Source: Aquabacterium olei (GTDB taxonomy: Bacteria > Pseudomonadota > Gammaproteobacteria > Burkholderiales > Burkholderiaceae_C). From it: DNA of 64,000 nt. The stretch is from contig NZ_CP029210.1 in the NCBI RefSeq assembly GCF_003100395.1, forward strand, positions 496,001 to 560,000, written 5' to 3'. Shown in pieces: positions 14,467 through 51,620 of this stretch. A program made the position numbers and the translations under genes. Below the pieces are notes generated by a model. The model was not told the DNA's origin and ran no database searches. It saw only the letters and a program-made list of their open reading frames with translations. Position 1 is the stretch's first letter, and every line of letters begins with the position of its first letter.

Positions 14467-15492
14467 ATGTTCGTCAAGAAGAATCTGATCGCTGTTGCTG
14501 CTCTGGCTGCTCTGGCTGTGTCTGCCCACGCTCAGTCGAGCGTGACCCTGTACGGTAACGTGGACGTCGCCGGCGTCTACAGCAAGACCAAGGTGGCAGG
14601 CTCGAGCGAGTCCACGACCGCCATCGAATCCTCTGGCCTGACCGAAAGCTTCTTCGGCCTGAAGGGCCAGGAAGACCTGGGCGGCGGCCTGAAGGCCGTG
14701 TTCAAGCTGGAGAGCTTCATCGACGTCGACACCGGTTCGGCTGGCACGTCGAACTTCTGGGGCAAGAACGCCTACGTCGGCGTCGCCGGTGACTTCGGTA
14801 CCGTGGCCCTGGGTAACCAGGAAAGCCTGTTCAAGACCGTTGGCAACGCCTACAACCCGTTCGGCGTGTCGCCGGCGCTGTCGACGACGGTCAACCTGTT
14901 CACCGGCCTGACGGGTCTGGGTGGCAGCTGGCAGAACACCGTGGGCTACGTCTCGCCCAACCTCAGCGGCCTGACCGTGTCGGCTCAGCACAGCGCCAAG
15001 GAAGGCGGCCGCGGTGATGCCGCCAACTACAACGGTGGTGCCACCGCCGTGGCCGCTAACTATGGCGCTGGCCCGCTGGCTGTGTCGGCTGTCTACGGCG
15101 ACGTGCGCAGCACCACCGCCGTCGCTTCGGAAGAGCGTCAGCGCGCGTTCCTGCTGGGCGGTTCGTACGACTTCGGCGTCGTGAAGGCCTTCGCACAATA
15201 CGGTCAGGACAAGTTCGATTCCAAGGTGGACGGCGATTTCAAGGCCAAGTTCTTCCAGCTGGGCGCTGTGGTGCCGGTCTCGCAAGCTGGCTCGGTGCAC
15301 GCTTCGTACGGCCAGACCAAGGTGGAAGACGTAAAGGCTCGTCAGTTCTCGCTGGCCTACAACCACTCGCTGAGCAAGCGCACGGGCGTGTACGCCGGCC
15401 TCACCTACATCAAGGATGAAGGTCTGCTGAACGACGACGTCGATTCCGTCAAGGCCACGGTGGTCGCCGTCGGCCTGCGCCACGCCTTCTGA
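14467..15492 (+). CDS. General (trimeric) porin 1
   Basis: A 16-strand outer membrane porin of the Burkholderiales Porin_4 (OmpC/Omp32-like) type, 341 residues. Signal peptide MFVKKNLIAVAALAALAVSAHA is cleaved before QSSVTLYGNVDVAG. LTESFFGLKGQEDLGGGLKA is the conserved second hairpin, and NPFGVSPALS belongs to the constriction loop L3. It ends VVAVGLRHAF with the terminal Phe needed for assembly. AAGGAG precedes the ATG. It is the first of three tandem porin genes, each separately terminated, and is more T/A-tolerant in codon choice, as expected for a highly expressed protein. Selectivity cannot be read from sequence by eye. Confidence 0.95.
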   Translation: MFVKKNLIAVAALAALAVSAHAQSSVTLYGNVDVAGVYSKTKVAGSSESTTAIESSGLTESFFGLKGQEDLGGGLKAVFKLESFIDVDTGSAGTSNFWGKNAYVGVAGDFGTVALGNQESLFKTVGNAYNPFGVSPALSTTVNLFTGLTGLGGSWQNTVGYVSPNLSGLTVSAQHSAKEGGRGDAANYNGGATAVAANYGAGPLAVSAVYGDVRSTTAVASEERQRAFLLGGSYDFGVVKAFAQYGQDKFDSKVDGDFKAKFFQLGAVVPVSQAGSVHASYGQTKVEDVKARQFSLAYNHSLSKRTGVYAGLTYIKDEGLLNDDVDSVKATVVAVGLRHAF

Positions 15493-15528
15493 TCGACGCC
15501 AGCCTCGGCTGGACTCGCCCAAACCTGA

Positions 15529-15555
15529 AAGCGCCCCTGCGGGGGCGCTTTTTTT
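15529..15555 (+). terminator. Rho-independent terminator after porin 1
   Basis: AAGCGCCCC-TGC-GGGGGCGCTT forms a GC-rich hairpin followed by a run of seven T residues. Confidence 0.9.
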
Positions 15556-15668
15556 GTGCGCACCGCGGATGTCTGTCCGGTTTCCTTCATCGAGAAGTCA
15601 TTTTGTCGTGTCCTGGCAACGCAAAGGAGGCTTTGTGCGCTCGCTTTGGCCCAGTTCTTGCTTTTTGC

Positions 15669-15697
15669 TTGGCAGTGAAAAAGTTCACTCCCACAAT
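15669..15697 (+). promoter_or_regulatory. Candidate sigma-70 promoter of porin 2
   Basis: TTGGCA (15669-15674), a 17-bp spacer, then CACAAT (15692-15697). The spacer contains the inverted repeat AGTGAA-aaag-TTCACT at 15674-15689, so a regulator could bind between the -35 and -10 boxes. Confidence 0.5.
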
Positions 15698-15714
15698 GAC
15701 TTTCAAGGGTTCTT

Positions 15715-15732
15715 CGGTTGACTTGTCAACCG
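15715..15732 (+). promoter_or_regulatory. Perfect palindrome in the porin 2 leader
   Basis: CGGTTGACTTGTCAACCG has 8-bp arms around two central bases. It lies some 44 bp before the porin 2 ATG and just after the predicted transcription start, a typical repressor operator position. It could equally form an RNA hairpin. No regulator gene adjoins it. Confidence 0.45.
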
Positions 15733-15775
15733 GTGTAACCCGGCCCCATCCCCTTCCCACAGTTAGGAGAAATTG

Positions 15776-16876
15776 ATGTTTGCAAAGAAGACCCTGGTGG
15801 CCCTGGCCGCCCTGGCTGCTGCCGCCGGCGCTGCCCAAGCTCAGTCCAGCCTGAAGGTGTATGGCCTGGTCGACATGGGCCTGGGTTCGTTTGAAGGCGC
15901 CCACGAAAAGGGTGAGTCGACCCGCACGACCGAAGTCCGCAGCGGCGCGATGACGACTTCCTTCATCGGCTTTGCCGGCGTCGAAGACCTGGGTGGCGGT
16001 CTGAAGGCCGAGTTCACGCTGGAAAGCTTCATCGCTGTCGACACCGGCCAGACGCTGAACAACAACGCTGGCAACTTCTGGGGCCGTGCCTCGAACATCG
16101 CCCTGAGCGGCGGCTTCGGCAAGGTGGCGCTGGGCCAGTACGACAACCCGCTGTTCACCTCGGGCTACACCTACAACCCCTTCGGTTCGTCGATGAGCTT
16201 CTCCCCGACGATGCGTCATTTCAACTATCTCGGTACGAGCCTTCAGACGAACATCCCGAGTGCAGGCGTCGGCTTCGACACCGGCTGGGTGAACTCGATC
16301 ACCTATGAATCACCGAACTTCTCGGGCCTGAGCTTCGTCGGCCAAGTGGCCCTGAAGGAAGGCAAGGGCGCACAGCTGAAGAACAGCTACACCGCCGCTG
16401 CCACCTACGCTGCCGGCCCGTTTGCCGCCACCTTGACTTATGTGAAGGGTGGCATCAGCAACGCCGCTGGTACGGTCATCGCCAACGGTGGCGCATACAC
16501 CTCGGACGAAAAGCTCTGGAACCTGGGTGCTTCGTACGATCTGGGTGTGGCGAAGCTGTTTGGTCAGTACACCTCGATCAAGGAAGACGCGAGCACGGCC
16601 GGTGCTGTCGGAGCCCGTCCAAACAACAAGGACAAGATTTATCAGCTTGGCGTGTCGGTGCCCGTGACCGACAAGGCGGCTGTCCTGGCCTCGTTCGGCC
16701 AACTGAAGAACAAGGACACCGACGCCGGCGTCACCACCAAGAACGAAGTCTTCTCCCTGGGCTACGACTACACCCTGTCAAAGCGCACCGACGTGTACGG
16801 CGTGTTCTCGAACGTGCGTCAGACCGCACTCCAGTCGGGCCAGTCGCTCGCCGTTGGCATCCGCCACAACTTCTGA
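15776..16876 (+). CDS. General porin 2
   Basis: A second Porin_4 family protein, 366 residues. Signal peptide MFAKKTLVALAALAAAAGAA ends QAQSS, with cleavage expected after QA. MTTSFIGFAGVEDLGGGLKA is the conserved porin segment, shared nearly word for word with porin 3 but not with porin 1 (LTESFFGLKG). NPFGSSMSFSP is the L3 loop and SLAVGIRHNF the C-terminal strand with terminal Phe. AGGAGA precedes the ATG at 15776; a TTG at 15773 is in frame but less likely. It looks like a paralogue of porin 3, probably from local duplication, with its own promoter and terminator. Confidence 0.95.
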   Translation: MFAKKTLVALAALAAAAGAAQAQSSLKVYGLVDMGLGSFEGAHEKGESTRTTEVRSGAMTTSFIGFAGVEDLGGGLKAEFTLESFIAVDTGQTLNNNAGNFWGRASNIALSGGFGKVALGQYDNPLFTSGYTYNPFGSSMSFSPTMRHFNYLGTSLQTNIPSAGVGFDTGWVNSITYESPNFSGLSFVGQVALKEGKGAQLKNSYTAAATYAAGPFAATLTYVKGGISNAAGTVIANGGAYTSDEKLWNLGASYDLGVAKLFGQYTSIKEDASTAGAVGARPNNKDKIYQLGVSVPVTDKAAVLASFGQLKNKDTDAGVTTKNEVFSLGYDYTLSKRTDVYGVFSNVRQTALQSGQSLAVGIRHNF

Positions 16877-16914
16877 TCCGGCGCAGCTCGCCTGAGCTGA
16901 CCTGATCCCCCACA

Positions 16915-16944
16915 CAAGGCGCCCTCCGGGGCGCCTTGTTCGTT
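16915..16944 (+). terminator. Rho-independent terminator after porin 2
   Basis: CAAGGCGCCC-TCCG-GGGCGCCTTG is a perfect 10-bp stem with a 4-nt loop, followed by TTCGTTTT. Confidence 0.85.
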
Positions 16945-16970
16945 TTCGGTGCGGCATGGTTCCTGCAAAT

Positions 16971-16998
16971 CTGTATACAGTTCACCAAGACGGTGAAC
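16971..16998 (+). promoter_or_regulatory. Two adjacent palindromes upstream of porin 3
   Basis: CTGTATACAG (16971-16980) is a perfect 10-bp palindrome and directly abuts GTTCACC-aagac-GGTGAAC (16980-16998). Both lie 32-60 bp before the porin 3 ATG and are good candidates for operators. The GTGAA/TTCAC half-sites also occur, in the opposite order, in the porin 2 promoter. Confidence 0.45.
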
Positions 16999-17029
16999 GG
17001 CATCCACCCCGATACGGAGTCACCAGTCC

Positions 17030-18085
17030 ATGTCCCTTCAGAAGTACATCGCCCCCCTCGCCCTGATGGCGCTGGGCACCGCCGCCTCGGCGCAGTCCTC
17101 AGTGAATGTCTACGGCGTCATCGACCTCGCGGTCGGCTCGTTCGAGCCCAGCGCGAAGACCGACGTCCGCGCCACCAAGGTGGATGGCAACCAGATGACC
17201 ACGAGCTTCATCGGATTCAAGGGCGTTGAAGACCTCGGCGGCGGGCTCAAGGCCGGCTTCGTGCTCGAGAGCTTTCTGCGCCCCGACACCGGGGCGTCCG
17301 GGCGCTTCGGCTCGTCCGACCCGTTCTGGTCGCGCGCAGCCAACCTCTATGTGCAGGGCGGCTTCGGCACGGTCACGGTGGGCCGGCAGATCGACCTGCT
17401 GTACCTGAACGTCATCTCCTACAACCCGTTCGGTGGGGCCTTCGGCCTCTCCCCCGCGGTGCGGCTCACCTTCGATGGCTCATGGGGCAACGACAAGGGC
17501 GATTCGGGCTGGAGCAACGCCGTCAGCTACAGCACGCCCAACCTTTCGGGCTTCAGCGCAACCGTCTCGGCCCAGGCGGGCGAGACCACCGACAAGAGCC
17601 AGCGCAGCAGCTACGCGGTGCTGGCCCGCTATGCGTCGGGGCCATTCTCGGTGGGCGGGGCCTGGCAGACCGTGCGCTCTGCGCAGGCACCCAAGGCGGC
17701 TTTTGCGGAAGGCCAGACGCAGACCTTCGGCATGGCCGGCGCCTCGTATGACGCGGGGTTTGCGAAGTTCTTCGCGCAGTATGGCCAGATCGAGAACAGC
17801 GGCTTCAGCAACGGCGCGCGCATCGCCACGACGCTGTGGCAACTGGGCGCCAGCGTGCCGGTGACGACCGCAGGCAAGGTGCTGGCGTCGTATGGACAGA
17901 GCAAGGAAAAGCCGGTCGAGGGGGGCACCACGCCCCGCACCACGCACGGGATCTTCACGCTGGCCTACAACCACAACCTGTCGAAGCGCACGGACACCTA
18001 TGTGGCCTACATGCTCGACAACGAGAAGCTGGCGGGCTTCAACAAGGGCCACAGCTACGTGGTCGGTCTGCGCCACGCCTTCTGA
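17030..18085 (+). CDS. General porin 3
   Basis: Third tandem Porin_4 family gene, 351 residues. Signal peptide MSLQKYIAPLALMALGTAAS is followed by AQSSVNVYGVIDLAVGSFEP. MTTSFIGFKGVEDLGGGLKA is the segment shared with porin 2. NPFGGAFGLSPAVR is in the L3 loop region, and SYVVGLRHAF is the last strand with terminal Phe. Relative to porin 1 and 2 its codon use is the ordinary GC-rich type of the neighbourhood, hinting at lower expression. A weak ribosome site precedes the ATG. A GC-rich hairpin separates it from the convergent metW. Confidence 0.95.
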   Translation: MSLQKYIAPLALMALGTAASAQSSVNVYGVIDLAVGSFEPSAKTDVRATKVDGNQMTTSFIGFKGVEDLGGGLKAGFVLESFLRPDTGASGRFGSSDPFWSRAANLYVQGGFGTVTVGRQIDLLYLNVISYNPFGGAFGLSPAVRLTFDGSWGNDKGDSGWSNAVSYSTPNLSGFSATVSAQAGETTDKSQRSSYAVLARYASGPFSVGGAWQTVRSAQAPKAAFAEGQTQTFGMAGASYDAGFAKFFAQYGQIENSGFSNGARIATTLWQLGASVPVTTAGKVLASYGQSKEKPVEGGTTPRTTHGIFTLAYNHNLSKRTDTYVAYMLDNEKLAGFNKGHSYVVGLRHAF

Positions 18086-28136: not shown

Positions 28137-29120
28137 ATGCGCATGGCCCTTTTTCCCAGGTCTCTCTCCGCCTTTGCATGCATGGCGGCCGCCTTCCTGA
28201 TTCCCGGTGCAGCCCGCGCCGCGGCACCTGGGGCCGTCGTCGAGTCGCTCAGCCTGCGCTGTGGCACGACCACGTGCGACGCCGAGATCCAGCGCCCGGC
28301 AGGGGTGTCGCGCCCGCCGGTGATCATCATGGCGCACGGCTTCGGTGCCCTGCGCGACTGGGGTCTCAGCCCGTTTGCCGATCGGTTCGTGCAGGCCGGC
28401 TTTGCCGTCGTCCGCTTCGACTACCGGGGCTTCGGGCGCAGCGGCGGGCAGCCGCGTCGGGTGGTTGACGGGCCGGCCCACGTCGACGACTGGGTGTCCG
28501 TGATCGACGCCGTGGCGGCCCGCCAGGACGTGGATGGCGCGCGCCTGGGAATCTGGGGCTCGTCCTACAGCGGCGGCCAGGTGCTGGTGGCGGCATCGCG
28601 CCGGCCGCAGGTCGTCAAGGCGGTCAGCTCGCAGGTTCCGTTCGTGCACGGCCTGTCCAGCGCCTTGCGCTATCCGCTCAGACACCAGCCCGCGGCGATG
28701 TGGATGGCGATCCGCGATGCGCTGCGTGGCGACGGAGAGGCGCCGGTCTACATGCCGATCATTTCGGCAGACGGGGGCACGGCGGCCCTGATCTGCGATG
28801 AGTGCGTCGCGGGCTACAGCAGGCTGGTGCCCAAGGGACAGGAGGGCGAGAACAAGGTGGCCGCGCGCTTCCTCTTCAGCCTGCCCTTCTTCTATCCGAT
28901 CGACAGTGCGCCCCAGGTGCAGGCGCCCACGCTCGTGATCGCCGCAGCACAAGACGGGCTCATTCCCGTGCAGAAGGTGCGTGACACAGCCAAGGCCCTG
29001 CCGCGCGGTGAATACGTCGAACTGGCCGGCGCGCACCATTTTTCGCCGTACAGCGGGCCGGTCTTCGAGCAGGTCGTGGCACGCCAGACCGCGTTCTTCC
29101 GCCAGCATCTGGCGCGCTGA
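28137..29120 (+). CDS. Exported alpha/beta hydrolase
   Basis: A 327-residue hydrolase with a signal peptide (MRMALFPRSLSAFACMAAAF, cleavage near ARA-AAP). The oxyanion HG is in IIMAHGFGALRDWG, the nucleophile Ser in WGSSYSGGQVLVA, the acid in AAAQDGLIPVQK and the catalytic His in LAGAHHFSPYSG. DYRGFGRSGGQPRR suits the X-Pro dipeptidyl/peptidase-like and acyl hydrolase group that includes YcjY. Four cysteines (LRCGTTTC, ICDEC) suggest disulphides consistent with periplasmic location. Likely regulated by the divergent TetR protein. Substrate unknown. Confidence 0.85.
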   Translation: MRMALFPRSLSAFACMAAAFLIPGAARAAAPGAVVESLSLRCGTTTCDAEIQRPAGVSRPPVIIMAHGFGALRDWGLSPFADRFVQAGFAVVRFDYRGFGRSGGQPRRVVDGPAHVDDWVSVIDAVAARQDVDGARLGIWGSSYSGGQVLVAASRRPQVVKAVSSQVPFVHGLSSALRYPLRHQPAAMWMAIRDALRGDGEAPVYMPIISADGGTAALICDECVAGYSRLVPKGQEGENKVAARFLFSLPFFYPIDSAPQVQAPTLVIAAAQDGLIPVQKVRDTAKALPRGEYVELAGAHHFSPYSGPVFEQVVARQTAFFRQHLAR

Positions 29121-29287
29121 ACGTCGCGGGGGGCATACCCCTGTCCGGCGCTCGGGTGAGTTCGACGCTGGCACGGTCGGGCACGCGCGACGTATGATGA
29201 CCGGTTGCCCTTTCGGTGGCCGGGCTCGTGTCTTTTGAAGGCGCGACGCGGCCGCAGGCGGGCCTTCTTCTTGCTGCTGACTGCCCG

Positions 29288-32251
<2,964 letters not shown>

Positions 32252-32264
32252 CCCGGATCGAGGG

Positions 32265-32296
32265 GCGGGCTTGCGAAAGCGCAGGTGAAAGCCCGC
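32265..32296. other. Hairpin after uvrA
   Basis: GCGGGCTT pairs perfectly with AAGCCCGC across a 16-nt loop, 14 bp after the uvrA stop. No T-run follows on the plus strand. A second imperfect hairpin (GGCGAC-g-ACCA with TGGTCGCC) lies at 32330-32353, just before the next gene. Confidence 0.4.
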
Positions 32297-32386
32297 AGAC
32301 AAGTTCGTGTCCGGTTTCCTAGGATGCGGGGCGACGACCAGTTCAGTGGTCGCCGTTCTTCACGCAAGTCATTCAGAGAGGAAACC

Positions 32387-33856
32387 ATGCTTGTCTTTCA
32401 CAAGGTCACGCGCCCCACGGCGCTCGCCCTGGCCGTCATGCTCGGCGTGTCGGCCGCGCACGCCGAGGTGCGGCGGCTCAGTCAGTCCGGGTTTGCCGAA
32501 ACCGTGATCCGGGCGCCCTCCGAGGACGGGACGACCTGGGTCACGGTCGGCGAGCGCCGCGTCGCATGGGACGGCGGGCTCGAGCAGAACATGGGGCTAC
32601 TGGCTCGGGTGCTGACGCCCAACACGGACAGCGACACCAGCGTCGGAACCGCGGTGAGTCCGTCCGAGGTCCGGATGTCGCTCGGGCACGGGTCCCGCCG
32701 CATCGTGAGTTCATCCGAATCGGTGGTGGCGCGTCTGGACGCGCGGCTGGCGTTCGAGCTGACCGAGGCCCGCACCGCCGTGCCACGTGTCGACGGGTTG
32801 GTGACGTCCTCGGTCTTTCCCAACGGCGACGAGCCGCTGGTGTCCCTGGATCTGTATCGCGTGACGGACGCGGGCGCCTCGCCCATCGCCCTGCGGAGTG
32901 GGCAGGCCACCGTGCTGTCCGCCGGGCGGTATGAGATCCGCGGCACCTCGTCCCTGCAGGTCAGTGCGTCCCTGCTCCGTCGATCCGGCAGCGGCTCGAT
33001 GGGCAGTGTGCTCGGGCTGACGCTGTCCGAGGTGGCGACCACGCTGCGTGGGCCCGATCCGGTGGCCGACATCGGCGGCAAGCCCGGCCCCTTCGCCGTG
33101 ACGTCCATGGTCATCCCTCAGCCCGCGGGTTACCGCGCCGGCACCGTGTATGCACCGACCGGCACCACCGAAGGGCCGTTTGCCGTGGCGGTGTTCGTGC
33201 CGGGCCCACTCGGAGGGCAGAAGCAGCACGCGTGGTTGGCCCAGCACCTCGCGTCCCACGGCTTTGTCAGCGTCGTCATCGACACGCAATCGCTGTTCGA
33301 CAACAGCCAGGCGCGCAACCTGCAAGCGGCGAATGCCATGCAGCAGGTCATCGCCTGGTCGGCCCAGGCAGGCACGCCGCTGGCCGGCCGCATCGATCCG
33401 GCACGGCAGATCGTGCTCGGGCAGGGTGCGGGCCAGCCGCTGCCCTTCATCGCAGCGGGCAGCGCGGTTCAGGCCGCCGTGGCGCTTGCGCCGCAGGTCG
33501 CCTCGAAGGACCGCGTGCCCGGGCCGGTCAAGGCGCCCACGCTGGTGGTGGGGTGCCAGGCCGACATCGTGCAACCGGTGGCCACCCACGCCCGCCCGCT
33601 GTACATCGATTGGCTGCGCACCGACCTCGAGCCACGCAACCCCAAGGCGTTCCTGATGGTCACCGGGGGGGCGACCGGATCGTGCACCACGCACCTGGCC
33701 ACGACCGAGCAGAAGGCGCTGGTGGGCCACGCCGTCACCGCGTGGCTCAAGCGCATGGTCGACCTCGATGCGCGATACACCCGGCATCTCTGCGGCGACT
33801 GGGGCCTCCAGGGCCGCCCCGGGGTGGTCGAGTTCTACCCGGCCTGCGAACGCTGA
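32387..33856 (+). CDS. Exported PETase/cutinase-like pseudoenzyme with a large N-terminal domain
   Basis: A 489-residue exported protein. Residues 1-26 form a signal peptide ending AHA. Residues 27-220 are a beta-rich domain I cannot assign. Residues 221-489 resemble Ideonella PETase from RGPDP and GPFAV, through GYRAGTVYAPT, LASHGFVSVVIDTQSLFD and APTLVVGCQAD, to LKRMVDLDARYTRHLC. Both PETase disulphide pairs appear kept (Cys390-Cys433 and Cys469-Cys487), as is the acid Asp393. But the nucleophile motif GWSMG reads GQGAG (Gly347), the catalytic His position aligns with Gly431, and the substrate-binding Tyr and Trp are changed too. It therefore looks non-hydrolytic, perhaps polymer-binding. 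GAGAGGA precedes the ATG. Confidence 0.8.
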   Translation: MLVFHKVTRPTALALAVMLGVSAAHAEVRRLSQSGFAETVIRAPSEDGTTWVTVGERRVAWDGGLEQNMGLLARVLTPNTDSDTSVGTAVSPSEVRMSLGHGSRRIVSSSESVVARLDARLAFELTEARTAVPRVDGLVTSSVFPNGDEPLVSLDLYRVTDAGASPIALRSGQATVLSAGRYEIRGTSSLQVSASLLRRSGSGSMGSVLGLTLSEVATTLRGPDPVADIGGKPGPFAVTSMVIPQPAGYRAGTVYAPTGTTEGPFAVAVFVPGPLGGQKQHAWLAQHLASHGFVSVVIDTQSLFDNSQARNLQAANAMQQVIAWSAQAGTPLAGRIDPARQIVLGQGAGQPLPFIAAGSAVQAAVALAPQVASKDRVPGPVKAPTLVVGCQADIVQPVATHARPLYIDWLRTDLEPRNPKAFLMVTGGATGSCTTHLATTEQKALVGHAVTAWLKRMVDLDARYTRHLCGDWGLQGRPGVVEFYPACER

Positions 33857-33862
33857 GCCGGT

Positions 33863-36676
<2,814 letters not shown>

Positions 36677-36722
36677 AGCCGGCCATTTTACGAGGCGGGG
36701 ACGCGTTCCGCGGCCGCCAAGC

Positions 36723-36753
36723 AAAGAGGCCTTGACGGGTAGGTCAAGGCCTC
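36723..36753 (-). terminator. Hairpin between the DUF465 gene and metH
   Basis: GAGGCCTTGAC-N6-GTCAAGGCCTC is a perfect 11-bp stem. On the minus strand it is followed by TTTGC, a weak U-tract. It would end the DUF465 transcript or act in the metH leader, about 47 nt before the metH ATG. Confidence 0.6.
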
Positions 36754-36827
36754 CGGGCACTGTCGACCGCACCCGGTGAGGTGCGGCGCAGCGGGGGGTG
36801 TCCTGTGGACGGGCTGACCGGGTCGGG

Positions 36828-46312: not shown

Positions 46313-46765
46313 ATGAAGCGCGTTCAACAAGGTTTTACCCTGATCGAACTGATGATCGTTGTGGCGATCATCGGTATTCTGGCGGCTGTGGCGCTGCCGG
46401 CGTATCAGGACTACACCATCCGGGCCCGTGTGACTGAGGGTCTGTCTCTAGCATCGTCCGCTAAAACCACGGTGTCCGAGAATGCCGCAGCGGGTACCAG
46501 CCCGCTGAACCTTGGTTGGACCTCCCCCAACTCGACGGCCAACGTCTCCAGCGTTAGCGTTGCAGGTTCTACTGGGGTGATCACCATTACCTACACGTCC
46601 ACTGCTGGGGGTTCTGCATCGTCCGCAAACTCACTCACACTGACGCCTACGTCTGGCGGCTCGCCGCTGACCGCCGGTGCAACTGCAACGGGCAGCATCA
46701 ATTGGGCATGCAGCGGCACGCTGGAGAACAAGTACCGTCCTGCTTCTTGCCGCAGCGGCACATGA
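46313..46765 (+). CDS. pilA: Type IV major pilin PilA
   Basis: A 150-residue type IVa pilin. The leader MKRVQQG is cleaved by PilD before [20 protein letters not shown], with Glu5 of the mature protein present. The conserved helix continues [14 protein letters not shown]. The C-terminal half is strikingly rich in Ser, Thr, Gly and Ala (for example [20 protein letters not shown]). Two cysteines (WACSG and PASCRSGT) make the usual C-terminal disulphide loop. ATG at 46313 follows TAGGAG. It is preceded by a sigma-54 promoter and followed by three GT-C-like membrane proteins of low GC, so the Ser/Thr-rich region or the tail is a likely glycosylation target. Confidence 0.95.
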
Positions 46766-48624
46766 TCGGGATTGCAACTGAAGAAAGGGCGCGTGAGCGC
46801 CCTTTTTTACTGTCTGGCTATGTAGGGTTGTGGGTGGGGCTGCTGGCGGTCGCTCTGCTCCTCGCTTATAGCGACGTCGTGGCTAATGGCTACGTATGGG
46901 ACGACTGGGAAATCGTTGCCCGTGCACTCGGAGGTCACGGGCGAAGTGGCTTAGAGACGATCCTTGGGCCAGTTCTTCCTGGCGCCCCCTATTTCCGCCC
47001 TCTGGTCATCGGGACATTTGTTGCCGAGATGCAGTGGGGGGGCTCAAACTCAGCCCGCACGCATACGATCAGCATTGCCATACATTTGGCGAATACCTTG
47101 CTAATCTTTTCCGTGATGTTGGTGCTTGCTCGGCGAATTCGGGGTTCGCTGAACGTAAAAACGGTCACGTGGTTGGGGTGCGGTACATTGCTTTATGCCT
47201 TGCACCCCGCTTTAATTGAAGCCGTTGCTTGGGCGTCCGCAAGATTTGACCTCTTGGCGACGAATATTGCGCTGGTTTATGTTTTGGCTGGGCTGTTACT
47301 GCGTGGGGCCGCTAGATTACCAATTTTATTTGTTCTCTTCCTTGCAGCAATGTTTAGCAAGGAAGCCGTGATCGGGTTGCCGATTTTTTTTGCATTATTG
47401 TCCGATGCACTAGAGAGGAATGCTCGACCTGCTGGCTTTGCTGTAATCCGGCTAAGAGGGCTGGTTGAGGGGGTGGTAATTTGTTTGCTGGGTGCCGGGA
47501 TCTATTTCTACGCGAAAAGCTATTTCATCGATCAGGCGATTTTTACCGACACATTCGTTGCGAATGAGTGGGGCGGTTGGAGGCGTTTTGCCTTGATAGG
47601 TGAAACCTTGCTGACCTACGCTTCGCTTGTATTCGCACCGTTCACCTCAATTGGACCGTACCACCCCATTCCCTGGGATTATGCGAATGGCTATCGTCCG
47701 CTGTTTGTCTCCACCGGGGTGGCCTGCTTCGCTGGTCTCATGGTGGTGCAAGGATTACGAGGGCGTTGGTGGCTTCTGATTGCAATAATGTGCGTCATTG
47801 CGCCTGTGATAAATGTCTTGCCTTTGAGTGTGGCCGGCAGTATTGCTCAGGATCGGTATCTGACATTGCCGCTCGCAATGATCGCTATATCGAGCGTTGT
47901 TTTGGTTTTGAAAACACCCTCTCTTCTGCGTCTAGAAACCCCAGCCTCTATTGCAGTGACACTCTTGGCCTTTGCTGTCTTTTGGATGAATGTGAAGGTC
48001 ACAGTTCCCCTCTGGAAAAGCGACCTTACTCTATGGGCATGGGCTGCAGAAAAGCACGGGTCGTTGCCTTACGTTCGAAAGAATCACGTGTCGTCGCTCA
48101 TCGCGTATGGAATGATTGACCAGGCGGAGGCGGTGCTCGCGCAAGACGTTACAGTAGGAGTTGCGGTGCGCGAGGTAAAGATGCAGGAAGCCATGTTGCG
48201 CGCCCAGTTGCACTTAAAGAAGGGCGAATGGGCGAAGGTGATTGAAACTCTCGAGCCGGTTGAAACCCACACGGAAAAATTCTGGGAAGTCGTGCGCAAA
48301 ACCGGGGGCGATCCTGCCCAGATGTGGTTGCCATCGGACAGTCCCGTCGCTAACTCAGATGAAATAAGGATATTTTTGCTTCGCTCGGAAGCCTTGCTGG
48401 CGATTGGGCGATATAAAGACGCCTTGGGTGAGGCTGAGAAAGCGGTGTTCGTCAATAGACGCAACGCAATGGCGAGAGTCATGCGTGCGTTTGCATATTA
48501 CGGTCAGGGTAAGCGTGAAGTGGCAGAAAAGGAATACCAAGTTGCCATCGCCGGAATGATGCCAGAACAGCGACAGGTCGCTGATCGTGCGAGATCCGAT
48601 TTACTCGCGCGATTGCGTGATTAA
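46762..48624 (+). CDS. Polytopic GT-C-like glycosyltransferase with C-terminal TPR region
   Basis: A 620-residue membrane protein with ten or more helices and a cytoplasmic or periplasmic helical-repeat tail (about 440-620, with [16 protein letters not shown] and [16 protein letters not shown] as TPR-like units). The first loop has [10 protein letters not shown], the acidic pair typical of GT-C enzymes, and the TM-plus-TPR design is that of TMTC-like O-mannosyltransferase relatives. The ATG at 46762 overlaps the pilA stop by four bases (ATGA); a terminator hairpin lies inside the first 16 codons. Base composition is clearly lower in GC than the flanking genes. A role in pilin glycosylation is inferred from position; donor sugar unknown. 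Confidence 0.7.
46784..46808 (+). terminator. pilA terminator nested in the start of the next gene
   Basis: AAAGGGCGC-GTGA-GCGCCCTTT is a perfect 9-bp stem and 4-nt loop followed by TTT. It begins 19 bp after the pilA stop and encodes part of the N-terminus (EERARERPF) of the downstream membrane protein. Confidence 0.85.
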
Positions 48625-49890
48625 GGTGGGCGACTTGGGGCTCGGATTCGTTATGAAAAAAGCAGCCCATAGTCCTGCTAACGCGTAAAAGTAAATCGAT
48701 GCTTCGATCAGTTGTTGTGTTGTATCATTTAAGTCTGCGGCGAGGGTCAACGCTTGAGGGATTAGGCACACCGCCAAAAAGAAAAATAATAGTGCTGATT
48801 GAAAAAAGCGACGTTCTTGTTTGATCATGCTCGGTATGCAGAAAGCAAGCAGTGGGAAGTAATAAATCCAGCCCAACGGTGCTAGAAGTAGCATGGTGGG
48901 CAGAGTCTGGGTCAGTGCTCGGTCTTGCAGCTGGCAGTTGGATAACGCTTGCGTGTGCTTACGATTGACAATAAATAAAGCGGCGGTAAGCGCCATGCTT
49001 ATCACTACGTACAGGAGCACGCCGAGTTGCGGCGCGTCGATCAACGGCCTATTCTCTGAGCCTCCAAAGATGCGACAGACCCAGCCGAATAGGGAGGCGT
49101 TCCAGTTGCTTGCGCTCCATGTGATGCTGTTGACGGCTTGGGTGAAGTCAATGAACGTACTGAGACCGAGCCAAATCCCAGTTGATGCACCAATGATCAC
49201 GATGGCCAGGGTGGTGCACGCAGCCGTTTCGTAATCTTTACGAGCAAGCAGGGGCACGAAGAAGAGGCCGAAAAAGGGTTTTAAACAAATCAGGGCGCCA
49301 AGGATGAAGCCAGCAAGTCGTTTACTACCTTTTGTAGCGCCGTGAAACATGGCTGCTGTGAGCAACATCAGAATTGGAGTGACTTGCCCGAGTGACAGGC
49401 TGACGTGTACGGGGTGAGTTAAGACTAGCGCCGTGAATATCCATGTCGTAACTTGCTTGCCGCAGAAGTTTGTTGGTAGCTGTTCGGCGATGATCCAAGA
49501 GGTGACAAAGATGCAAATGAGAGAAATGCAGAACCAAGTCCACCATGATGTCTCATAACCGAGACGCGCTATCAAAAAAGCGGCGGGGGCGAATGCTGGA
49601 CTGTTTAAGTTTGGATGAAGTCCGAGTCGTGCCTGAGTGAAGCACTCGAGTGGCCCTGAAGGGTCGCACACGGTTTCGGATGCCTTATCGTATTGCCAAT
49701 ACATGGTTGTTCCGCTTTGGAGGCGAAGACCCGATATGTAAAATTTATAAAAGTCGGTGCTGGCCGGATGGGCGACCATCTCGCTCGCTAGCATGAAGTG
49801 CTTGGCGAGGCTAAATGGGAGAACAACCATGCAGATTATGCTTATCAAGCATGCGATTTTTGCGCAACGGGGGCTGAAAGTCTTCTGCAT
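48601..49890 (-). CDS. GT87/DUF2029-like polytopic membrane glycosyltransferase
   Basis: About 429 residues, with roughly ten membrane helices. The first periplasmic loop has HPASTDFYKFYISGLRLQSG, the Asp-Phe-x-x-(F/Y)Y pattern of GT87 (DUF2029) mannosyl/arabinosyl-type transferases that use polyprenyl-phosphate sugars. ALVLTHPVHVSLSLGQVTPI and GLFFVPLLARKDYE are also family-like. The ATG at 49890 is chosen because the first helix follows it; the frame is open further but reads as basic, unstructured sequence. It overlaps the preceding convergent gene by 24 bp at the 3' ends. Low GC and many rare A/T-ending codons suggest transfer. Function inferred from fold and neighbourhood. Confidence 0.7.
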   Translation of the reverse strand: MQKTFSPRCAKIACLISIICMVVLPFSLAKHFMLASEMVAHPASTDFYKFYISGLRLQSGTTMYWQYDKASETVCDPSGPLECFTQARLGLHPNLNSPAFAPAAFLIARLGYETSWWTWFCISLICIFVTSWIIAEQLPTNFCGKQVTTWIFTALVLTHPVHVSLSLGQVTPILMLLTAAMFHGATKGSKRLAGFILGALICLKPFFGLFFVPLLARKDYETAACTTLAIVIIGASTGIWLGLSTFIDFTQAVNSITWSASNWNASLFGWVCRIFGGSENRPLIDAPQLGVLLYVVISMALTAALFIVNRKHTQALSNCQLQDRALTQTLPTMLLLAPLGWIYYFPLLAFCIPSMIKQERRFFQSALLFFFLAVCLIPQALTLAADLNDTTQQLIEASIYFYALAGLWAAFFITNPSPKSPTLITQSRE

Positions 49891-49908
49891 CAAAAGAGGC
49901 CTAAATGT

Positions 49909-51549
49909 ATGTTGGAAGTAGGTGACACATTTGCAAAGAGGGTGAGTTTCGGCCTCTTCTTTGTGATTTTTCTGTATGTTTTTTTTCAGTACGCATGGCT
50001 GACGGAGGACGCCTTCATCAATTTTAGAGTGCTGGAGAATATGCGGGGAGGGCAAGGGTTTGTCTGGAATCCTGGGGAGAGAGTCCAGGTTTTTACGTCT
50101 GCGCTGTGGTTATTTCTGAATTATTTTGCATACGAGATTTCGGGGCAGATATTCCAGGCTGCCATTTTTCTGTCCTTGTTGCTGGTTTCGGCCGTCATGA
50201 TCGTATTCTATGTTCTGGCGGAGCGGAGGACCGGCCTTTTTCTGTTGTCTGTGTCGCCCTTCCTGCTCTCACGTAGTCTGCGTGATTACATGACGTCGGG
50301 GTTGGAGACGCCGTTGGTTATGTTGGCGATAACTTTTTTTGTCTTGGCGCTTGTCAAGGCAAAGATTCATCGCGGACTTTGGTTGGGCCTGGCCACCTCT
50401 ATGTGCTTGTTAACGAGGCACGATATTTTTGTGGTTGTCTTGCCATTTTTGATCTTTGAGATCGTTGGCGCCTGGGGTCGCCCACATGGTTGGCGACACT
50501 TTGCTGTAGGCTTCGCGGCTGGGTTGGTGCCCTTCTTGCTGTGGACAGGTTTCTCTCTTGTCTATTTTGGTTTGCCTGTCCCAAATACCGCGAGAGCAAA
50601 GGTGGTCGGTGGCGATACTGTTGCCCAGTCCTTGATGTACTTGGAGTACATGCGGCATTTTGATCCGTTGGCGTATTTTGCGCTCGCAGGGAGTTTGTTG
50701 TTGCAATTCTCTGTTCGATCAAAATATAGGTTCGCATATCTGGTGTCCATCTTTTTTTTCCTGGTGTACATCGCGTCTGTCGGTGCGGATTACATGATCG
50801 GAAGATTCTTCGTGGGCCCGCTGGTGTTGTCGCTTGCATTATCTGTGCATGCTGTGCGGGATAGATCGGGGGATAAAGACGTCTCAACGTTGCTCTCGTC
50901 AGCGCGATCTGGCTTGATCATTGTCGGCATGCTGTTGTTGTTGGGTTTTCGGGTCAATAACGAATCTCGGTATTGGGATGCTCGCCCGGTGTTTGTGTCG
51001 GGTATTGTCGATGAGCGACATGTCTATTATGGGCAGACCGACCTTGAAACCATTGCTCAGTCTGGTGTGTTGGGCCATTTCAAAGATAATGCTAGGCACA
51101 TGCGCGATCCTGGTGGTATATATATGGCATGCAACATTGGCATGGCTGTGTACTATGCCGACCGCGCCGTGCGGGTCATCGATCCATTGGCACTTTCGGA
51201 TTTTTTCTTAGCAGGTCTGCGGCCGTTGCCAAGTGCGCGAATCGGTCATTTCGAGAGGCCCGTGCCAATTGAATATATTAAATCGTTGCAGCAAGAACGA
51301 AATGCTTTTACGGACGCACGTGTTGCCGCATATTTCAATGACACTCTTCTCATCACTCGTAGTCACGAGCTATTCAGTGCGGAGCGCTTTCGGGCCATCT
51401 ACAGAGTGCTGACAGGCGCTCACTCTGAGGCACTGCGTCTAGCGTCGGTTTCCCCCGCACTTGTTGGGGGTTTCGTAGAGGTGCCAGCAACAGAGAAGAC
51501 CTCTGTTGCCTGTGCTGGGGCCGGTACAAGAGTGATCCGTTTCAAGTAG
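49909..51549 (+). CDS. AftB/TfpW-like GT-C membrane glycosyltransferase
   Basis: A 546-residue protein with about ten membrane helices and a soluble C-terminal domain of around 170 residues. Just after the first helix comes [20 protein letters not shown] then [16 protein letters not shown], the acidic pair and loop found in AftB-type arabinofuranosyltransferases and, as I recall them, in Pseudomonas TfpW pilin glycosyltransferases. [20 protein letters not shown] is also characteristic. The start is uncertain (49909 preferred; 49798 possible but overlapping the divergent gene). Very low GC for this genome. Being part of the block between pilA and tkt, it is the best candidate for attaching sugar to the pilin. 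Confidence 0.7.
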
Positions 51550-51620
51550 CGGTGCAGGGGAGGCGAGGCGGCAAGACGGTAGAATCATCGCCTCTTGATA
51601 TTCCGTCGCTCGTGCCCACC

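Follow-up and report, generated by a model that had tools for sequence, protein, structure and literature searches.

Why would a bacterium keep a probably exported PETase-like protein in which both the catalytic serine and the catalytic histidine are missing? This question is raised by an open reading frame (ORF) at 32387–33856 (plus strand) in a 64,000-nucleotide stretch of Aquabacterium olei (contig NZ_CP029210.1, positions 496,001–560,000), here called the window. The ORF starts with the ATG at 32387 and encodes 489 aa, and intact homologous ORFs are seen in two other genomes of the genus. The product is probably an exported pseudoenzyme built on the PETase scaffold and kept as a non-hydrolytic, partner-binding protein.

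The PETase-fold domain corresponds to residues 216–489 (33032–33853, plus strand). In a Pfam profile search, residues 220–470 match PF12740 with 157.8 bits (E 4.6e-46). The best match among PDB sequences is 6ky5_A (E 2e-42). The second allele of the gene, allele B, scores 190.4 bits against PF12740, and both alleles pass the Pfam gathering cut-off of 28 bits. Judged by sequence, the homology is far beyond chance, and the C-terminal domain is PETase-like as originally predicted. The window protein has the PETase alpha/beta-hydrolase fold that characterizes the PF12740 family. Against the NCBIfam equivalog NF051441 (bis(hydroxyethyl) terephthalate hydrolase), it reaches 128.2 bits and stays under the 520-bit cut-off. 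On these alignments it is a member of the PF12740 homology family that lacks the intact triad defining the enzymes.

Residues were mapped on IsPETase numbering from the alignment to the PDB match. The catalytic Ser160 corresponds to Gly347 and the catalytic His237 to Gly431 (33677–33679). Asp206 corresponds to Asp393 (33563–33565), which is the only triad residue retained and is present in both alleles. The altered nucleophile elbow is LGQGAGQP (residues 344–351, 33416–33439), and the GxSxG position (345–349) reads GQGAG. The dead proteins read GQGAG, GHGAG or GHGTG here, while the Ser-keeping relatives in the genus mostly read GHSMGGG or GWSMGGG. The change from GWSMG to GQGAG and the replacement of His by Gly, both claimed from the sequence of the window, are thus found in the alignment. 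The segment between the elbow and the strand after it is two residues shorter than its IsPETase counterpart, and the catalytic Ser may have been deleted together with the neighboring Met instead of substituted. Aligners place this gap either at Ser-Met or later, and under neither placement is a Ser present. The catalytic His is expected two residues ahead of the second Cys in the extra disulphide; this position is Gly431 in the window protein, and the His is absent in allele B. MAFFT aligned H436 to the catalytic His column in one alignment. H436 was rejected as the catalytic His: the register is set by C433, and in allele B the loop contains no His. Neither at the elbow nor in the His loop do the alleles share a Ser or a His.

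The disulphide cysteines, in contrast, are all retained in both alleles (C203, C239, C273 and C289 of IsPETase correspond to C390, C433, C469 and C487). The Cys positions of the extra disulphide of type II PETases (C203-C239) are present besides those of C273-C289, and both bonds are predicted to form. This includes the pair Cys390-Cys433 pointed out in the original prediction.

Two homologues share the altered elbow and the N-terminal domain. They are 480-residue allele B proteins encoded by two uncultured Aquabacterium metagenome-assembled genomes (G007 and G360) in the same gap between uvrA and metH. Allele B has the same N-terminal domain and the same elbow shortening, and neither Ser nor His. 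The two allele B proteins are 97% identical to each other and 37–38% identical to the window protein. The identity between the alleles is 25% (44/178) in the N-terminal domain and 46% (122/265) in the PETase domain, and the elbow is kept as LGxG(A/T)GQP.

Such dead proteins are few in the genomes searched. With the allele B protein as query, 54 places in 28 of the 42 genus genomes were found at E ≤ 1e-20. The elbow Ser is present in 51 of the 54 ORFs, the exceptions being the window protein and its two counterparts. Fifty of the 51 Ser-keeping ORFs have the catalytic His, and the remaining one ends at a contig edge. At least one Ser-keeping PETase-like protein is held by 26 of the 28 genomes; in G007 and G360, the dead protein is the sole match at this threshold. 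In draws of 399 genomes each from the family and the order, up to six candidates were scored per genome. The family draw, which partly overlaps the genus set, gave 24 places in 12 genomes, and 23 of them keep the Ser, the exception being the window's own; read as 25 ORFs, it includes one cut piece of a neighboring gene that also keeps the Ser. The order draw (E ≤ 1e-30) gave a match in the window's own genome only. Database protein searches each scored about 8000 candidates sharing most words. Among the matches listed, the only natural dead members were the window protein (P0002) and allele B (P0004). One search gave the best 120 of 195 matches, with the window allele not among them, and more dead alleles may exist. 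In the 122 rows examined (P0001, P0003 and 120 listed matches), the elbow Ser is absent from P0001, P0003, P0004 and P0024. P0024 is a named engineered PET (poly(ethylene terephthalate)) hydrolase with Cys at the elbow. A loose His test counted P0001 as His-bearing because H436 fell within its range. No natural PETase or related hydrolase without catalytic residues was seen among the papers listed in a search of open-licence literature. A tree of 70 PETase domains groups the dead proteins in a single clade (support 100/99). They are on long branches (1.18 for the window protein), and the attachment of the clade to the outside is unsure.

The gene differs between G007 and G360 by 45.5 synonymous and 14.5 non-synonymous changes. 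The ratio of non-synonymous to synonymous divergence (dN/dS) is 0.110, or 0.147 in the N-terminal domain and 0.096 in the PETase domain, and therefore purifying selection acts on allele B. The inter-allele dN/dS is 0.62–0.66 at a synonymous divergence (dS) of 1.09–1.16, which is near saturation.

The data support a retained role of the protein outside serine-esterase catalysis, and a folded, disulphide-bonded and probably exported pseudoenzyme with a binding partner explains them most simply. Probably, a PETase-type alpha/beta-hydrolase domain lost the serine-esterase site once, in the ancestor of both alleles, and has since been retained as a folded binding scaffold joined to the beta-rich N-terminal domain. 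The protein would be exported and folded in the cell. In the periplasm or extracellularly, it would bind its partner non-covalently, whether this is a small ligand, a glycan or a protein. The Gly-rich elbow, remodelled and conserved between the alleles, might contribute to the new surface. The identity of the partner is guesswork. The original prediction had proposed a retained fold used for a purpose other than hydrolysis, such as binding a polymer. Its non-hydrolytic part agrees with the loss of Ser and His, the kept cysteines and the purifying selection in allele B.

Several points weigh against this explanation. The loss of the active site does not by itself prove binding. Conservation is seen in few sequences, namely two alleles from three genomes. 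Purifying selection was measured within allele B, and the window allele has no close relative in the set. The inter-allele dN/dS would also agree with a long period of weak constraint, and is too saturated for a firm reading. The nearly identical genome G357 does without the gene. Unusual catalysis by Asp393, His401 or H436, the last present in the window allele only, may also occur.

The position of the gene leads to another explanation. For the same genome pairs, the dS of the pseudo-PETase gene between the alleles is about 4–5 times that of uvrA and metH (0.22–0.29). This rules out fast evolution in place as the cause of the allele divergence. Between the window genome (G000) and G007, dS is 0.28 in uvrA and 0.24 in metH. 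G360 is nearer to G000 than to G007 in five compared genes (dS 0.27 versus 0.59 in tetR and 0.28 versus 0.63 in recA, for example). It is nearer to G007 than to G000 in uvrA (0.18 versus 0.29), metH (0.16 versus 0.22) and a gene at 25.5 kb (0.05 versus 0.12). These mixed affinities indicate that segments have been exchanged, one of them around the pseudo-PETase gene. In G357, the flanks are 98.4–98.7% identical to those of G007, and uvrA and metH are about 50 bases apart, leaving an empty site. No match to the gene was found elsewhere in G357 (one 8.75-kb contig at the locus; genome 86% complete). Since the alleles are far older than their flanks and a nearly identical relative has an empty site, the locus has been swapped by recombination. 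A uvrA-type match is seen in 41 of the 42 genus genomes. Among 30 junction loci, the gene is present in 3, metH follows directly in another 3, and the remaining 24 show neither within 1.5 kb or less of sequence. uvrA and metH are adjacent in G031 and G006 too.

The protein could thus be a surface or secreted recognition factor, such as a self/non-self marker or a decoy facing phages or competitors, whose locus is diversified by allele swapping. Two ancient alleles and an empty site at one junction, and the local exchange between lineages seen in the flanking genes, are consistent with this idea, as is the fastest divergence being in the N-terminal domain. When the first 41 kb of the window is divided into 82 tiles of 500 bases, 80 match G360 (median 93.6%) and 80 match G007 (88.4%). 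The two unmatched tiles are the same in both genomes and are inside the pseudo-PETase gene. Next in divergence from G360, and the only other strongly divergent stretch, is a porin gene at 14–15.7 kb. The comparison with G007 is less telling, as about 20 other tiles are also short or below 80% identity. On the other side, the pattern comes from one locus in four genomes, no partner, receptor or immunity gene was recognized beside the pseudo-PETase gene, and allele exchange is common for many kinds of genes. We regard a recognition role as unlikely.

The former PETase cleft might instead bind or sense polyester or a similar polymer. The protein still has the PETase fold and all four disulphide cysteines, and Ser-intact PETase-like proteins are common in the genus (26/42 genomes). 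The cleft itself is altered. Tyr87, Trp159, Met161, Trp185 and Ile208, which contribute to the oxyanion hole or ligand contacts according to Joo et al. 2018 (PMC5785972), correspond to Pro274, Gln346, Ala348, Gln370 and Val395 in the window protein, and to Leu, His, Thr, Ala and Phe in allele B. The reported changes of the oxyanion Tyr (Tyr87 to Pro274) and the substrate Trp (Trp185 to Gln370) are among them. Trp159 belongs to subsite II, and type I enzymes have His at this position in the same source, so the His of allele B is no loss by itself. Subsite I of type II PETases (Tyr87, Met161, Trp185 and Ile208) is not conserved in either allele. Among the named neighbors of the gene, none was identified as a polymer-utilization gene. 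Polymer binding was the example given in the original prediction; with these cleft residues changed, such binding in the former cleft is unsupported. A polymer-binding role is quite unlikely.

Catalysis of another kind, with a different nucleophile or a metal around Asp393, is improbable. The alleles agree at Asp393, at His401 and at several further polar positions. However, His401 falls on a nearly invariant His outside the triad in an alignment of 72 mostly Ser-keeping proteins, and the elbow and His loop offer no Ser or His conserved between the alleles. The predicted structure is less confident around residues 351–360, 371–380 and 431–440, and the active-site geometry is therefore uncertain. 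Finally, a decaying pseudogene that is still in frame is highly improbable: the inter-allele dN/dS, the long tree branches and the empty site in G357 would fit it, but it is contradicted for allele B by the low dN/dS between G007 and G360, and three ORFs are intact and the four cysteines and most of the elbow are kept between alleles of 37–38% identity.

The probably exported pseudoenzyme has a probable signal peptide at residues 1–26 (32387–32464, plus strand), ending AHA|E as read off the sequence. The N-terminal domain follows at residues 27–215 (32465–33031, plus strand). Neither allele's N-terminal domain matches Pfam at E ≤ 10, and its profile has no match among PDB sequences at E ≤ 1. 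It is mostly strands in both models, which are of low confidence. As far as tested, these results fit the earlier description of this domain as beta-rich and unassigned. Its second half may weakly resemble a beta-sandwich of the bacterial pre-peptidase C-terminal (PPC) type; in models of this confidence, fold matches are only leads. The window domain alone matched 10 of 299 family genomes (a draw that did not list G007 or G360) at E ≤ 0.01, none better than 3.4e-4 besides its own. A 3-row profile matched two of the 299, the other match being 6.3e-4 over 64 positions. Over the 42 genus genomes the profile gave four matches. Three are the genomes already known to have the gene (1e-84 or better); the fourth is G018, with 0.0018 over 91 positions. 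The weak matches (E 3.4e-4 to 0.01, and G018) were treated as chance.

The named neighbors of the gene are uvrA, metH, a TetR-type gene and a generic hydrolase. uvrA (29216–32251, plus strand) is on the left and has a displaced stop and a short altered C-terminal tail. At 32231–32251, SCNRMS follows LAPLL, while uvrA ends with LAPLL in G007 and LAPLLR in G357. metH (33863–36772, minus strand) is on the right and convergent. Promoter and terminator scans of 32200–33900 found nothing. The generic alpha/beta hydrolase (28191–29120; Abhydrolase_1, Peptidase_S15 and others) lies between the TetR-type gene and uvrA. It is 60–77% identical to its counterparts in G007, G357 and G360, while its two neighbors are 86–99% identical. 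Farther away, three consecutive porin genes (Porin_4) are at 14467–18085. The first one is missing from the corresponding place in G360, which is the only other large collinearity gap over the 41 kb. The stretch 46431–51614 has a G+C content of 0.51–0.55 versus 0.62–0.72 elsewhere in the window, and nowhere aligns over more than 300 bases with G007, which is otherwise largely collinear. It is perhaps an inserted element.

The closest known systems are the PETase and polyester hydrolases of PF12740, such as IsPETase and the Rhizobacter gummiphilus PETase (7dzt). The window protein differs from them in lacking the catalytic Ser and His, the oxyanion Tyr and the substrate Trp, in the elbow shorter by two residues, and in the extra N-terminal domain. 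The triad is kept in all 69 enzymes of the set described by Joo et al. 2018 (PMC5785972). According to another report (PMC10547765), this family, including an Aquabacterium enzyme, has been mined from public sequences as plastic degraders by similarity. The dead lineage has a very high score with the PETase profile and retains all the cysteines of the two disulphides, but it cannot use the PETase mechanism. Similarity alone is therefore misleading here. With Ser-keeping relatives in the same genus, the lineage is a natural system for asking what role a PETase fold takes after the loss of hydrolysis. The small swap locus can also be used to study selection on an exported protein.

P0013, P0014 and P0016 (429–464 aa) resemble the window protein in having an extra N-terminal region before the PF12740 domain. 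It is roughly 160–200 residues including the signal peptide, and looks different from the window N-terminal domain by eye. Their Ser and His are intact, and they are outside the dead clade in the tree.

Neuroligins may be comparable in mode. They have an exported alpha/beta-hydrolase domain without the catalytic serine, used for protein–protein contact and adhesion (PMC12931606). It can be speculated, with considerable doubt, that in Aquabacterium-type bacteria a dead PETase is exported and serves in recognition, with its fold recruited for binding as in neuroligins. The gene at the uvrA–metH swap site, present as one of two ancient alleles or absent, would then diversify the interaction with phages, neighbors or surfaces. 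The resemblance is an analogy of mode and not of membership: both would be exported alpha/beta-hydrolase domains without the catalytic serine, while neuroligins, unlike the window protein, are eukaryotic membrane proteins related to acetylcholinesterase.
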